Source: Gemmatimonadota bacterium
Lineage (GTDB): Bacteria > Gemmatimonadota > Gemmatimonadetes > Longimicrobiales > Gaopeijiaceae
Length of the DNA: 33,179 nt
Assembly (NCBI GenBank): GCA_003248075.1
Contig: QJYK01000242.1
Coordinates: 1 to 33,179, forward strand
Direction of reading: 5' to 3'
A program made the position numbers and the translations under genes. Each line of letters starts with the position of its first letter. Position 1 is the first letter of the stretch. Shown piece by piece: positions 24,176 through 29,326 of this stretch. A model generated the notes under the pieces. It was given only the letters and a program-made list of their open reading frames with translations. It had not been told where the DNA came from and searched no databases.

Positions 24176-24510
24176 TGGATGACCTCGAGGGCCTATGTGG
24201 CCTGGATGGGGTGGGAGGAGGTGCCTGCCTGCGCGCTCGGCGCCCGACGAGATGACCTCGGGGACCCACGTCTGTGACTCCGGCGCTACGTCGTTCGATG
24301 CGGCGTCGCCACATCTGCGACTCTCTCCGCGACCGGATCGGGTGCCCCATGTTCAGCTAAGTCCTTGTGTAACAACGGTGTCAGTCATCATTCGCTCGGA
24401 CGGTCGAGCTCCGTGACCCGTCATGTAGGTGCAAGGCGCATGCTACTCGCGGACGCGTGCGCGACGCCCAGCTTACGTCCCCAGCGTGCGGTCCCTATGT
24501 TGGCCGGATC
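24176..24510. other. Intergenic region between divergent genes
   Basis: This 335-base stretch separates the metallophosphoesterase lipoprotein gene from the TolB-TPR gene and carries no convincing coding frame. It contains a comparatively AT-rich patch (about 24350-24395, including TTGTGTAACAACGGTGTCAG), which is a plausible place for promoters of one or both genes. I could not find a clear sigma-70 pair. A decamer-like GATGACCTCG occurs twice (24178 and 24251), possibly by chance. Confidence 0.4.
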
Positions 24511-26796
24511 ATGCCTGCACAACCCTCGCTCATCGACCGACTGAAGAGGGCCCGGATCGTCCAGGTGCTTCTCGTCTACCTGGGCGCCACCTGGGTTGTG
24601 CTCCAGCTGGTGGACACCCTCGTGGGCCTGCTGTCCCTTCCGGGCTGGGTGGGTCCCGTGGCCGTGTTGCTCCTGGGCGTGGGCCTGGTCGTGGTGCTGG
24701 CCACGGCCTGGGTGCAGTCATTGCCCTCGACGACCGCCGCGGAGGAGGCCGGCGAGCGTCCCACGGATTGGCAGATCGCTCCGGCGGACGCGCTGGCGAG
24801 CCTCCGGTCCGGAAGGCTGCCTCATCTCACCTGGGGCCGTGCGTTCCTGGGCGGAGTGGTGGCGCTGTCGCTGCTCTTCGGGGCTGCCGGACTCTACGTC
24901 CTGACCGGCGGCGGCCGCGGCTTCCCGGGTCCCGCGCGGGCAGGCGCCGAGGCGGCGGCCGACGCGGTGGCAGTTCTCCCCTTCGAGGCGCGGGGCCCCG
25001 AGCTGGCGGTCTACGGGGAGGGCATGGTGGACCTCCTGACTGCCAATCTGGAGGGTCTCGGTGGCCTCCGGACCATCAACTCCGGAACCGTCGTCGCCCG
25101 CTGGCGATCCGAGCTCGGGGAGACCACCACGGCGGAGCTGGAGCAGGCGCTGCGCGTGGCCGGCGGGGTGGGTGCGCGATACGCGGTGCGCGGAAGCGTC
25201 GTGGACGCGGGCGGTCAGGTACGACTATCCGCCGACGTCTTCGATCTCGCGGACGGAAGCCGCATCGACGGGGTGCGGGTGGAGGGACCGTCGGACGGCA
25301 TGCTGGAGCTTGTCGACGAACTCACGGTTCAGCTGGCGCGGCCCCTGGTCGGCGGCCAGCCGGGCGCGGCCAGCCGGGCGCGCGCCGTGGACACCGGCTC
25401 GCTGGACGCCCTGGAGGCATACCTTCGCGGTGAGGCGCTCTTCAGGCAGCTCCGTTTCGACGACGCCACCGAGGCGTTCCGGGAAGCCATCACGGCCGAC
25501 AGCCTCTTCGCGTTGGCATGGTGGCGTATGTCCGAGGCGTGGGGATGGACGGACACCAGCGTGGACGAAGGGCATGAGGCGCTCCGCCGGGCGGCGGCAT
25601 TGACGGCCGAGCTCCCCCCGCGTGAGCGGGTGCTCTTGCGCGCTGACACCGACCTCCAGGAGGGGAGCAACGCTGCCATGCCCGCACTCCGGAGCCACCT
25701 GGCCCGCCACCCGGAAGACGCAGACGCCTGGAACGTGCTTGGCGAGTTCGCCGCCCATGCACCTTGGCTATCGATGGCATCTGAGGACGAGCTCGAAAGC
25801 TCGTTCACCCGAGCCGTGGACCTCCTTCCCTCGTTCAGCCCCTACTACATCCATCTGATCGGGCTGATGATGGCGGAGCGCCGGGAGACGGAGTTCCAGG
25901 AATACGTGCGGCGGGCGGGGAGCATGAATCCCGAGGACGCCTTTCTCGTGGCGTGGCAGCCCGCCTGGGACTTCCACTGGGGCGACCCGGAACAGATGAG
26001 CGCCGCCGCGACGTTCCTCCGTTCGTTGCCCATGAGTCAACGCGCGGTCGCTTCCCTCGGCACGCACTCCACCGATGCAGCCATGCGGGTGCAGGCCTCC
26101 ATGGACGTCTTCCCGAGGGGTTTCCACGACCAGGCGTACCCCTACCTCTCATCGGCCGTATCCGGAGCGGCAGGTATCGGGCCGGACAGGTGGGAGGTCA
26201 GGCAGGCACCGGGCCTGGTCCGCTGGGCACTCCTGGTCGGGAGCGCCGAGCCGACCGTTTCCGAGCTTTCGGCAGCGGTCGCGCGTGGGCCCACGATCGC
26301 AGAGGCGGTCTCCGCCGCCGTGCTGGCGGCGTACGCCGGGAAGGACGCTCTTCGGGACGCGGCGCTGGAGGCCCTCCCGGACACGGCCTGGTCCGGGCCG
26401 TACGGCCGCTTCGGCGGCGCAGCGGATGCGGCGGAGGCCCGCCGCTCGGCCACGGCAATGAGCCATCTCCGGAACGGCGAGCCTCTGGCGGCGGTCGCGC
26501 TTCTCGGGGAGACGCTTCGCCAGACCTCGTACGACGCCCTGGCCGTCTATCTCATGGGGCAGGCCCAGGCCGACCTTGGCGCCTGGGACGAGGCCTTACG
26601 GTACTGGGACGTCCTCCTGCGCAGCGACTTCCGTCCCCACGTGCGGCTGGGAATGGGCCGCGTCTACGAGGCGAAGGGGGATACGGCGGCTGCCCTGGAG
26701 AGCTACCGGGGCTTTCTCGCCATGTGGGCGGAGGCCGATCCCACCTTGCCGCCGAAGGTGGAGGCCGCCGAAGCGGTCAGGCGCCTCGGCGGGTGA
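24511..26796 (+). CDS. Membrane-anchored TolB-like / TPR protein
   Basis: This 761-residue protein starts at the ATG at 24511, because MPAQPSLIDRLKRARIVQVL aligns with the N-terminus of the genes at 19235 and 33039; the frame back to 24457 is extra. Two membrane helices lie within residues 17-68 (VLLVYLGATWVVLQLVDTLV and VLLLGVGLVVVLATAWVQS) and a third near 112-134 (AFLGGVVALSLLFGAAGLYV). The TolB-like module begins AVAVLPFEARGPELAVYGEG and includes TTAELEQALRVAGGVGARYA. TPR helices follow, with LEAYLRGEALFRQLRFDDAT and ending YEAKGDTAAALESYRGFLAM. This TolB-TPR half is strikingly close to the C-terminal half of the kinase gene at 29389 (shared pattern VLPF..RG....Y.EGMVDLL). It probably acts as a sensor or scaffold; no output domain is present. 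Its stop is three bases from the stop of the convergent DUF429-HIT gene. Confidence 0.87.
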   Translation: MPAQPSLIDRLKRARIVQVLLVYLGATWVVLQLVDTLVGLLSLPGWVGPVAVLLLGVGLVVVLATAWVQSLPSTTAAEEAGERPTDWQIAPADALASLRSGRLPHLTWGRAFLGGVVALSLLFGAAGLYVLTGGGRGFPGPARAGAEAAADAVAVLPFEARGPELAVYGEGMVDLLTANLEGLGGLRTINSGTVVARWRSELGETTTAELEQALRVAGGVGARYAVRGSVVDAGGQVRLSADVFDLADGSRIDGVRVEGPSDGMLELVDELTVQLARPLVGGQPGAASRARAVDTGSLDALEAYLRGEALFRQLRFDDATEAFREAITADSLFALAWWRMSEAWGWTDTSVDEGHEALRRAAALTAELPPRERVLLRADTDLQEGSNAAMPALRSHLARHPEDADAWNVLGEFAAHAPWLSMASEDELESSFTRAVDLLPSFSPYYIHLIGLMMAERRETEFQEYVRRAGSMNPEDAFLVAWQPAWDFHWGDPEQMSAAATFLRSLPMSQRAVASLGTHSTDAAMRVQASMDVFPRGFHDQAYPYLSSAVSGAAGIGPDRWEVRQAPGLVRWALLVGSAEPTVSELSAAVARGPTIAEAVSAAVLAAYAGKDALRDAALEALPDTAWSGPYGRFGGAADAAEARRSATAMSHLRNGEPLAAVALLGETLRQTSYDALAVYLMGQAQADLGAWDEALRYWDVLLRSDFRPHVRLGMGRVYEAKGDTAAALESYRGFLAMWAEADPTLPPKVEAAEAVRRLGG

Positions 26797-26811
26797 GCGC
26801 TACCAGCGCTC
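26795..26811. terminator. Hairpin spanning the two convergent stop codons
   Basis: The inverted repeat GAGCGCT (26795-26801) and AGCGCTC (26805-26811) with a three-base loop covers the TGA of the plus-strand TolB-TPR gene and the TAG of the minus-strand DUF429-HIT gene. It could serve as a shared bidirectional 3'-end hairpin. There is no T-run, so it is not a textbook intrinsic terminator. Confidence 0.4.
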
Positions 26812-28011
26812 CGGGATCACGACCCGCACCCCTCGCCGTCCCTCGAGGACGTCGCCGGCGTAGCGGGGAATGACGTGGACGTGGGCATGGTCCATCGACT
26901 GGCCCGCCGCCGCACCGTCGTCGATCCCCACGGTGAAACCGTCGGCCTCATACTCCCGCGCGAGGCGGCTCCGCACGGACGCCACAAGAGCCCAGAGATC
27001 CTCCCGCTCCGACTCGGGAAGGTCGAAAACCGAGCCCACATGGCTCAGGGGTACGACGAGCGTATGTCCCAGGGTGACGGGATCCCGATCCGTCAGGGCG
27101 AGGGCATGGCTGGACCGGTCGTAGACCGTGTCGGGCGCAGGCGCGCAAAGAGCACACCTCGTGGTGGAGATGAACTTGGCCTCGTCGACCCGCTCGACAT
27201 GGGTGTCAGCGCTGTCCGGCCGTTCCGACGGACGCCAGATCGCGCCTTCCAGGCGGGTCACTCGATCCGGGTTCGGGGGCAGCGAAACGATCTCACGCAT
27301 GTGTCGGGCCATGGTGATCGCCGATATCGCCGCGTCGAAGGCGTCCTCGGAGCCCATCGCGGTGCGTCGCTGGAGCGCGGTCATCTCCGGAAAATGATCC
27401 CCGAGGTAGTGCTCGCGGGCGGCCCGGTCGGACTTCACGACCGGACCGGTCATCGCGCGCGGATAGATCTCCAGGACCAGCGGCCGGCGGGGTGCGTGGA
27501 AAGGCCAGATGTTGAATCCCGCCTCGTGCAGCCTCACGAGATAAGGCATGCCTCTGATGGAGCCCGGGCCCACGGCGCCGCCCCCGCCCACCTGGAAGAC
27601 GCTCTTGGGCTGGAGTCCGGCTGCTTCGGCCTCTTCCTCGGTCCTGCGAAAATGGGCGGACAGCTCGGGGCGCTTCTTCCTGCGCCGTCCCCAGAACGGG
27701 TCCGGGCACTCCTCGAGCCACTCGTCCCCGAGCGCCTCCGCACGACGCCACACGGCCGCGCCGTCTTCGGCGCCCAGCTCCTTGCAGAACCACTCGGGAA
27801 ACGAGAACGCGAAGTCCAACCCCACCACCATGGCCCGACTCCAGTCGGCCTCCTGACAGAGGTGGTCGATGAGCTCCTCGCGTGTGCGACCGTTCTCCAG
27901 TCGGGCCATGTGTCCGTCGGAGACCTCGGCCAGCCAGATCTTCTTCTGCTCTCCCGTCTTCGCTCCCGACCAGTCGACGGCGATCGCCCTGATTCGCTCT
28001 CTGTCGCTCAT
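26800..28011 (-). CDS. DUF429 (RNase H-like) - HIT domain fusion protein
   Basis: This is a 403-residue cytosolic two-domain protein. Residues 8-262 match DUF429, a predicted RNase H-fold nuclease. Acidic candidates are D13 in AVDWSGA, D66 in VVGLDFAFSFP and the SEDAFDAA motif (221-228); the signature PKSVFQVGGGGAVGPGSIRG is at 135-154. Residues 280-403 are a HIT domain: CALC (286-289, possible zinc pair), GHTLVVPLSHVGSVFDL, GAAAGQSMDHAHVHVIPRY with the histidine triad H375/H377/H379, and GVRVVIPERW. HIT proteins hydrolyse or transfer nucleoside phosphates, so a linked nuclease and nucleotide hydrolase is an attractive but unproven idea. I chose ATG at 28011; an ATG at 28038 is possible, and the frame to 28224 overlaps the neighbouring gene. 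No frameshift is needed: both domains are in one frame. Confidence 0.87.
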   Translation of the reverse strand: MSDRERIRAIAVDWSGAKTGEQKKIWLAEVSDGHMARLENGRTREELIDHLCQEADWSRAMVVGLDFAFSFPEWFCKELGAEDGAAVWRRAEALGDEWLEECPDPFWGRRRKKRPELSAHFRRTEEEAEAAGLQPKSVFQVGGGGAVGPGSIRGMPYLVRLHEAGFNIWPFHAPRRPLVLEIYPRAMTGPVVKSDRAAREHYLGDHFPEMTALQRRTAMGSEDAFDAAISAITMARHMREIVSLPPNPDRVTRLEGAIWRPSERPDSADTHVERVDEAKFISTTRCALCAPAPDTVYDRSSHALALTDRDPVTLGHTLVVPLSHVGSVFDLPESEREDLWALVASVRSRLAREYEADGFTVGIDDGAAAGQSMDHAHVHVIPRYAGDVLEGRRGVRVVIPERW

Positions 28012-28057
28012 CGGGCGGCCCGGTCCCGCATCGGCCATCCAATCACCGGCGGCACAC

Positions 28058-29326
28058 TCATCCGGCGCGGCCCCGTAGCCCCGCACCCGCTCTGCAGCTT
28101 TCCTGGCCCCGTACGTCGCCCGCCTTTCGACAAACGGAGGCGTTGCGTTCGGGCTCGGTCCACAGGAGCGCCACCCGCTTCCCGAGGCCGCGGTAGCATG
28201 GAGCCGCGTCCCGACCGGCGACATCGACCGCGGAACAAAAGGAGAGCGCTCCGTCGGGACCCCACTCGGCGTCCACCATGCCCTCCACCACTCCGTCCAG
28301 ACACGCGTCCACGTAAGGTGCGGGAGCGCGCTGGCACGACGCGATCAGCGTCGACGGATCCCGGCCGAGCCAGGTCATGGACTGCTTGCCGTACCCGGCG
28401 TAGCAGCGCACCTGCGCACGCTCCGGAGCCATCTCGCACCCGTGCAGCGCCGGCTCGCCCCAGTCCTGGAGAAGCGTACCGATGGCCACCGTCTGGTAGG
28501 ACCAGCAGGCGCCTTGATACGCCTCACCGACTCGATTGCAGGGATAGGACAGGTCGTCCGACATGAAGTGGGCCTCCGCCGAGCCCGCCGCCACGGCGTC
28601 GTGATCCATCCCACCGTGGCCCATCGCGCCATGGTCCATCCCACCGTGGTCGTGGCCCTCGCCCACCCCTCCTGAGCTGGGGAGGCCTTCGCCGCGGACC
28701 AGGTTCTGCATGAACACCCCGTCGTAGCACTCCTCACGCAGGACCACCGTGGGAAACGCGTCGCACACCGCCAGCGACGCATCGAAGGAGTAGCCCAGCC
28801 GGGTCAGCAGACCGTGACCCAGCCCATGGGCACACTCACGCACCTCGATGGTCGGCCGCTCCGGGGACTCCAGAGTCGTGCACAGGGCGGCGGCTCCCGC
28901 GGGATCCACCTCCGGCAGCGACGCCATATAGGCCTCGATGACGCCGTGGTAGCATCCTGCCATGAAGAGCGGGCGACAGTCAGCCAGGAGTGCCGGGTCG
29001 TTTCCGCCCATCCGGCTCACGAAGCGGCCCACGGAGTGCGCGAGCTGATGCCCCTGCCGCGCGATCACGGAGTCGCGCTCGGCAATGACCTGCAGGCTGT
29101 CGAGAGCGGTCCGGGCGCCCTGGTCGCGGGCCGCGACGAAGATCGAGGCCGCCTCGAGCTCCGCGTACGACGCGGCGCTCCAATCCACGGGGCCGGACGG
29201 CGTCATCTCGAGTCCGGAGGCTCCCGCGCGTGGGATCACGCGACCGAGGACGAAGCCCGTCGTGCCGACGAGCGCGATGAGGAGGGTGGTCAGGAGGCGG
29301 GACATGACGATGAGGTCAAGTTTCAA
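28058..29326 (-). CDS. Membrane-anchored Cys-rich repeat protein with His/Met-rich insert
   Basis: This 422-residue protein of unknown function has an N-terminal membrane helix or signal anchor (SRLLTTLLIALVGTTGFVLG). The rest is a set of helical repeats of about 40-50 residues, each carrying a Cys in a similar context: GCYHGVIEAYM, ECAHGLGHGLL, ECYDGVFMQNL, ACWSYQTVAIG, RCYAGYGKQSM, ACLDGVVEGMV, PCYRGLGKRVA. Between two repeats is an insert (about 225-243) made mostly of His, Gly, Met and Asp (HDHGGMDHGAMGHGGMDH), resembling copper- or nickel-binding stretches. Together these suggest a periplasmic metal- or disulfide-dependent protein (inference). The start is drawn at TTG 29326 because AAGGAG lies four bases before it; an ATG at 29305 is the alternative. 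It follows the kinase gene by about 60 bases and precedes the DUF429-HIT gene. Confidence 0.75.
   Translation of the reverse strand: MKLDLIVMSRLLTTLLIALVGTTGFVLGRVIPRAGASGLEMTPSGPVDWSAASYAELEAASIFVAARDQGARTALDSLQVIAERDSVIARQGHQLAHSVGRFVSRMGGNDPALLADCRPLFMAGCYHGVIEAYMASLPEVDPAGAAALCTTLESPERPTIEVRECAHGLGHGLLTRLGYSFDASLAVCDAFPTVVLREECYDGVFMQNLVRGEGLPSSGGVGEGHDHGGMDHGAMGHGGMDHDAVAAGSAEAHFMSDDLSYPCNRVGEAYQGACWSYQTVAIGTLLQDWGEPALHGCEMAPERAQVRCYAGYGKQSMTWLGRDPSTLIASCQRAPAPYVDACLDGVVEGMVDAEWGPDGALSFCSAVDVAGRDAAPCYRGLGKRVALLWTEPERNASVCRKAGDVRGQESCRAGAGLRGRAG
28605..28649. repeat. 30-base direct repeat inside the His/Met-rich coding segment
   Basis: TCCATCCCACCGTGG occurs at 28605-28619 and again at 28635-28649, a 30-base period. 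It encodes the repeated Gly-Gly-Met-Asp-His element of the His/Met-rich insert. In-frame slippage here could change the number of metal-binding units by ten residues at a time. Confidence 0.65.

Follow-up and report, generated by a model that had tools for sequence, protein, structure and literature searches.

The window, by which we mean the whole 33,179 nt stretch of Gemmatimonadota DNA analysed here, carries a gene that specifies a single two-domain protein, in which a DUF429-type domain is followed in the same frame by a HIT domain (Table 1). Our best reading, held tentatively and with slightly less than even confidence, is that this fusion is the nucleotide-processing partner in a mobile HNH module directed against phages or plasmids, and that it has been retained alone in the window. 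We found no biochemical function assigned to DUF429 in the literature on that domain. Its fusion to a well-understood nucleotide hydrolase, together with a coupled HNH nuclease, provides concrete substrates and a phenotype with which DUF429 can be tested.

An earlier note, made from the letters of this DNA, had proposed the fusion and both domain assignments, and had listed D13, D66, SEDAFD (221–226) and H375/H377/H379 as candidate residues. The fusion and the assignments were borne out, and all of the listed residues lie where the note placed them; our confidence in the anatomy of the protein is high. Codon-position bias of the coding type extends through both domains and the linker, and the AlphaFold model of the fusion protein has a mean pLDDT of 89. 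We dismissed a long antisense ORF covering the gene (26875–28566, plus strand) as a G+C artefact, as both homology and codon bias belong to the minus-strand frame. Eleven full-length relatives, 50–54 % identical to the window protein, have both domains in one frame. They derive from metagenome-assembled genomes (MAGs) of different studies and belong to the Gemmatimonadota and Candidatus Palauibacter; two of them (L101 and L106) are labelled Proteobacteria, and their fusion sequences nest within the Gemmatimonadota clade in the tree. The existence of 11 intact relatives rules out a sequencing or assembly error that joined two genes. A search for relatives whose frame stops beyond residue 262, which the note had regarded as the mark of such an error, gave a mixed outcome: the fusion stands, with 11 others intact and five exceptions. 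In two of these (G072 and G288) the frame stops at or inside the start of HIT, in G116 the HIT domain is in a different frame from DUF429, in G162 it is frameshifted, and in G319 DUF429 and HIT are separate genes ∼0.7 kb apart. One end of a G116 contig (C59; locus L046) holds pieces of DUF429–HIT–HNH, whilst HNH and DUF429 fragments are scattered over the opposite end; the contig is apparently a graveyard of this module.

Table 1. Coordinates of the fusion gene, its domains and candidate residues, and the adjoining convergent gene (positions are those of the window)
Feature	Position	Strand	Basis or remark
DUF429–HIT fusion gene, 403 aa + stop	26800..28011	−	ORF, relatives, codon-position bias; TAG = 26800–26802
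DUF429-like RNase H-fold domain, aa 1–262	27226..28011	−	PF04250, profile–profile match, AlphaFold block with pLDDT mostly >90
D13, VDWSG motif, end of first strand (8–13 in model); candidate metal ligand	27973..27975	−	56/56 N-domains
D66, GLDF motif, directly after strand 61–65; candidate metal ligand	27814..27816	−	56/56 N-domains, model
E181, EIYPR motif, strand 178–182; candidate catalytic residue	27469..27471	−	56/56 N-domains
SEDAFD motif, aa 221–226	27334..27351	−	D226 56/56, D223 53/56; aligns with DDxLDA
Interdomain linker, aa 263–285	27157..27225	−	pLDDT <50 at 268–282 (predicted disordered); variable in alignment
C-terminal HIT domain, aa 286–403, Fhit-like branch, C286-x-x-C289	26803..27156	−	PF01230, Foldseek
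Histidine triad H375-A-H377-V-H379 (GQSMDHAHVHVIPR)	26875..26889	−	Identical in 13/13 HIT rows
Convergent TPR-protein gene	24457..26796	+	ORF, TPR repeats; ends 3 bp from fusion stop

The N-terminal domain is termed DUF429-like, and not a formal Pfam member, because its score against PF04250 (19.2 bits when the domain is scored by itself and 17.4 bits within the full protein) lies under the Pfam cut-off of 23. An E-value of 0.01 was reached by seven of the 57 N-domain rows scanned, indicating a divergent subfamily. Moderate support for a similarity to true DUF429 was provided by profile comparison: using hhalign, 26 N-domains were aligned with a comparison set of Pseudomonadota proteins that exceed the PF04250 cut-off (n=11), giving an E-value of 1.8 × 10−5 and a probability of 78 % over the C-terminal part. 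In the alignment, E-I-Y-P lines up with E-x-H-P and SEDAFDA with DDxLDA of true DUF429; E181 is an additional candidate residue, absent from the list in the note. In the AlphaFold model the strand–strand–strand–helix–strand order is that of the RNase H fold, and the predicted placement of acids at strands 1 and 4, with a further acid towards the C-terminus, is consistent with an RNase H-like pattern. In earlier work DUF429 was assigned to clade D of the RNase H-like superfamily, and its acids in strands 1 and 4 were noted to be conserved (Majorek et al. 2014; PMC3985635). The window domain shares with DUF429 (PF04250; COG2410/COG4328/COG4923) the strand order and the four motifs D, D, E-x-[HY]-P and DDxxDA in equal sequence, but differs in its divergence, its score below the cut-off and its fusion to HIT, an architecture for which no description was found in the DUF429 literature. 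No relative of the N-terminal domain was found in the PDB by sequence, and a Foldseek search with the whole fusion model returned at least 50 matches, all of them HIT structures among the matches listed.

The C-terminal domain is, judged by sequence, certainly a HIT domain, as residues 294–385 match PF01230 with an E-value of 5 × 10−20 and 72.3 bits against a curated cut-off of 21.5. Human FHIT was the best Foldseek match of the fusion model among those listed, with an rmsd of 1.4 Å over 98 columns. Fhit and related dinucleoside-polyphosphate hydrolases share with the window domain the GQ-x-x-x-H-x-H-x-H core and are its nearest solved structures (36–38 % identity over the domain); by nearest sequence and fold it probably belongs to the Fhit branch, and Ap3A-type hydrolysis is predicted. 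It differs from Fhit in being joined to DUF429, with Fhit-type activity and substrate here being predictions from sequence and fold. The established chemistry of HIT enzymes is nucleotidyl transfer to a histidine followed by hydrolysis, and a covalent Fhit–nucleotide structure (PDB 7p8p) is among the Foldseek matches listed. Given its place in the Fhit branch, the window domain would be expected to transfer a nucleotidyl group to H377 and then hydrolyse it; our confidence in this exact reaction is low. NitFhit of Caenorhabditis elegans serves as a caution that a partner fused to HIT need not share its substrate. In this classic Rosetta-Stone case (PDB 1ems; PMC9913352) a HIT domain is likewise naturally fused behind another enzyme, but the partner is nitrilase-like.

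In all 11 of the intact relatives the gene directly after the fusion specifies a conserved HNH protein of ∼350 aa, split by a frameshift in two of them (L110 and L175). Among the junctions that we read, most are ATGA overlaps, as in L101, L102, L104 and L106, and we conclude with high confidence that DUF429–HIT and HNH normally form a two-gene, translationally coupled unit in this clade. At its C-terminus this protein carries the HNH motif (C-x2-C, DHF-x-PW, N, CN-x2-K), and its N-terminal region is conserved and helical. Foldseek with a model of it (mean pLDDT 70) returned nothing significant, PADLOC has no dedicated model for either the protein or its HIT pair, and the literature that we searched for HIT together with HNH yielded no description of the pair. 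A free-standing HIT gene precedes the HNH gene, without DUF429, in further Gemmatimonadota (G251, G093, G373, G038, G228, G222 and G319), in Occallatibacter (Acidobacteriota), in a planctomycete MAG, and on betaproteobacterial plasmids of Aromatoleum aromaticum and Polaromonas naphthalenivorans. Gammaproteobacterial members of this HNH family usually have, in place of HIT, an upstream small SAM methyltransferase that matches Methyltransf_25 or TehB, which are general families of the small-molecule type. The HNH family is rare and patchy (two of 398 Pseudomonadota genomes at E ≤ 1 × 10−15), and a phage search for it gave no match, with the few viral contigs all being of the methyltransferase type. 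Members of the HIT subfamily are also present in the absence of HNH (G125, G120, G150, G326 and G221), so that the subfamily is not dedicated to the pair. On a Paenibacillus plasmid (L241:6058–7320, plus strand), a distant HNH homologue (24 % identity) is followed by an annotated nucleoside triphosphate pyrophosphohydrolase gene, which would place a further nucleotide hydrolase beside an HNH protein of this type.

Partners and HNH genes do not always persist together. The HNH gene is kept where the methyltransferase is split (on the complete plasmids L190 and L236) or the HIT gene frameshifted (G162), and in G067 and G013 it has no partner gene at all; either HNH has no strict need of its partner or these loci are decaying, and some of these cases may reflect errors of sequencing or HNH genes that are inactive. 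Where HIT has decayed, in G072 and G288, HNH is also gone. These observations bear on a toxin–antitoxin arrangement, in which HNH would be the toxin, the first gene (HIT, DUF429–HIT or methyltransferase) its antidote and the window copy a solitary antidote. A small first gene that overlaps the start of the second is in keeping with this, as is the window orphan, and solitary antidotes are common in nature. Nevertheless, we consider the arrangement improbable: a strict antidote role is disfavoured by the HNH genes that persist with broken or absent partners, even if HNH could be inactive there, and it would be unusual for two enzyme folds without relation to each other to serve as the antidote.

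A defence role is suggested by what surrounds the HNH family in other lineages. The methyltransferase–HNH pair directly precedes a WYL gene and BREX genes on two Acinetobacter plasmids, adjoins type I-Fv cas genes on a third, and is found with McrBC and type I restriction–modification in Marinomonas. In Occallatibacter a DUF4011/AAA/MTES_1575 protein, matching the PADLOC model PDC-S37 (E = 5 × 10−286), precedes the HIT–HNH pair, and the locus includes two HNH_2 genes, to one of which the pair is coupled. Gemmatimonadota fusions, on the other hand, have variable and mostly non-defence neighbours. The note had asked for a check of homologues for nearby defence genes. Such genes were found around the HNH partner family, which lies beside BREX, CRISPR and restriction systems elsewhere, but the fusion neighbourhoods are mostly unremarkable; hence the case for defence rests on the HNH family elsewhere and not on the window. 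By this analogy a defence role for the HNH module is plausible, and we hold it with moderate confidence. The proteobacterial plasmids L184, L185, L187, L189, L235 and L236 carry HNH with HIT or a small SAM methyltransferase, several of them beside BREX or CRISPR, and this plasmid-borne combination is a candidate for an uncatalogued defence module in its own right.

The proximity of methyltransferase–HNH pairs to restriction–modification and BREX genes would also suit modification-dependent restriction, in which HNH cuts according to marks that the methyltransferase or HIT enzyme sets on DNA or removes from it. We regard this as very improbable, as the methyltransferases match Methyltransf_25 and TehB and not DNA methylases, HNH is retained where no working methyltransferase remains, and HIT enzymes are not known to modify DNA. 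With respect to known defence systems, ThsC of type II Thoeris is a HIT protein that belongs to a defence locus and has been proposed to process a nucleotide signal (PMC8565338), and the window HIT domain matches the PADLOC ThsC model at E = 2.8 × 10−13, a similarity at the level of the HIT fold. However, the partner of the window-type HIT family is HNH, and neither ThsA nor ThsB was found among the five window neighbours scanned or the scanned neighbours of relatives. Septu PtuB and other HNH effectors share the HNH motif of the partner gene, but the match to the PtuB model is confined to the HNH stretch, the partner gene having a separate conserved helical N-terminal region; moreover, a PtuA-type ATPase is absent from the conserved unit, in which the conserved partner is HIT or a methyltransferase.

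The window copy of the fusion is orphaned. The window genome, which is 96 % complete, yielded no HNH partner, and the window holds no HNH similarity or fragment anywhere; the place that HNH occupies in relatives is taken by the convergent TPR gene. In the absence of a downstream HNH gene, the window gene is to be regarded as a member of the protein family and not as a complete module, and it exemplifies the module with its nuclease half absent. The TPR protein belongs to an expanded family with ∼30 matches in the window genome (G000). The window's upstream neighbour, sought for an empty-site comparison, was not found in the same-genus genome G323. In trees of each domain the other fusions form a well-supported clade that does not include the window sequence, which is on a long branch in both, yet a single clade for all fusions was not rejected by the AU test (P=0.226 for DUF429 and P=0.252 for HIT). 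Consequently there are two possible origins, namely one early fusion with subsequent loss of HNH, or two separate fusions.

The same features might point to a decaying fragment, the HNH gene having been deleted from a former operon and the remaining fusion being without current function. The missing partner, the long branches, an altered C-terminus (IPERW in the window protein versus LPERAAYWDx in relatives) and the frequent decay of related loci (G162, G116, G139, G248, G072 and G288) fit such an explanation. We nevertheless judge it quite improbable, as the 403 aa frame is whole and both its codon bias and all of its candidate catalytic residues are retained.

DUF429 has further partners that are active on nucleotides. 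In Gemmatimonadota the same DUF429 subfamily is fused to HD_4, which is MESH1/RSH-hydrolase-like (L112, L113, L051, L054 and L055), and published DUF429 fusions include Nudix (PMC3985635), RelA/SpoT (actRel) (PMC3153485) and a phosphomethylpyrimidine kinase domain (PMC3985635, PMC3153485). The Nudix and RelA/SpoT fusions resemble the window protein in linking DUF429 to a nucleotide-active enzyme, but involve other partner families, with no HNH operon described (PMC3153485, PMC3985635). Nucleotide-active partners of DUF429 are recurrent, and this lends support to the more general idea in the note that DUF429 works with nucleotide hydrolases; the specific mechanism that the note offered, by which a modified end would be cleaved and a nucleoside monophosphate set free, is speculative. 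Additionally, in two genomes of the phylum (L057 and L067) the DUF429 N-domain runs without a stop into a pyridoxal-dependent (PLP) decarboxylase, whilst in L049 (8208–9815, minus strand) it is followed in frame by ∼276 aa without a Pfam match, at the end of which a D-x(n)-EGKR stretch resembles, by eye, a PD-(D/E)XK nuclease.

Such recurrence is counted in favour of an explanation without defence, in which the protein is a housecleaning or alarmone enzyme: DUF429 would work with HIT, HD_4, Nudix and RelA/SpoT, the window protein would break down compounds of the Np(n)N or nucleotidyl-adduct type, and its relatives' link to HNH would be secondary. Further in its favour are the intact HIT triad and DUF429 residues of the window copy despite the missing HNH, the assignment of HIT to the Fhit branch, and a neighbourhood with a TPR protein, a Ser/Thr kinase and no defence genes (the five neighbours scanned were TPR, kinase, PKD/metallophosphoesterase or without assignment). 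We consider it possible but doubtful, as it leaves unexplained the HNH gene directly downstream in 11 of 11 intact relatives and the co-travel of HIT and HNH without DUF429, and as HNH disappeared along with the decayed HIT in G072 and G288.

Returning to the mobile HNH module, we counted in its favour the intact fusions followed by HNH, the HIT–HNH pairs elsewhere, the defence neighbours, the patchy spread, the lack of an HNH partner in the window genome and Fhit as nearest solved structure; counted against it were the non-defence neighbours, the window orphan, HIT without HNH and HNH without a partner. The HNH protein would be the nuclease of the module. The HIT partner, or the methyltransferase that replaces it in Gammaproteobacteria, would act chemically on a nucleotide that is a signal or an adduct and that in turn would control or complement the HNH nuclease. 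DUF429, with its four-acid candidate site (D13, D66, E181 and D226) flexibly tethered to the Fhit-branch hydrolase, may contribute an activity facing nucleic acid, either as a metal-dependent nuclease or as a catalytically tuned binder. In the window, the HNH gene would have been lost or never been present, and the remaining protein would act alone on a nucleotide or nucleic acid, or be a remnant. Interchangeable HIT and methyltransferase partners, and a location beside BREX, CRISPR and McrBC, give the HNH family the look of a defence module that has not been catalogued. It is conceivable, although we think it rather unlikely, that HNH with an exchangeable partner (HIT, DUF429–HIT or small methyltransferase) constitutes a class of mobile, nuclease-based defence that has yet to be described. 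The state of the HNH effector would then be set by an enzyme that processes nucleotides, and DUF429 would be a nuclease arm added in Gemmatimonadota.

Finally, the upstream neighbour of the fusion (28058–29326, minus strand) specifies a Cys- and His-rich protein of 422 aa with CAHGLGHGL and CYHGV motifs and no Pfam match. It sits between the fusion and a Ser/Thr kinase–TPR gene, with all three on one strand, and its product is distantly homologous to proteins from two families of the order.
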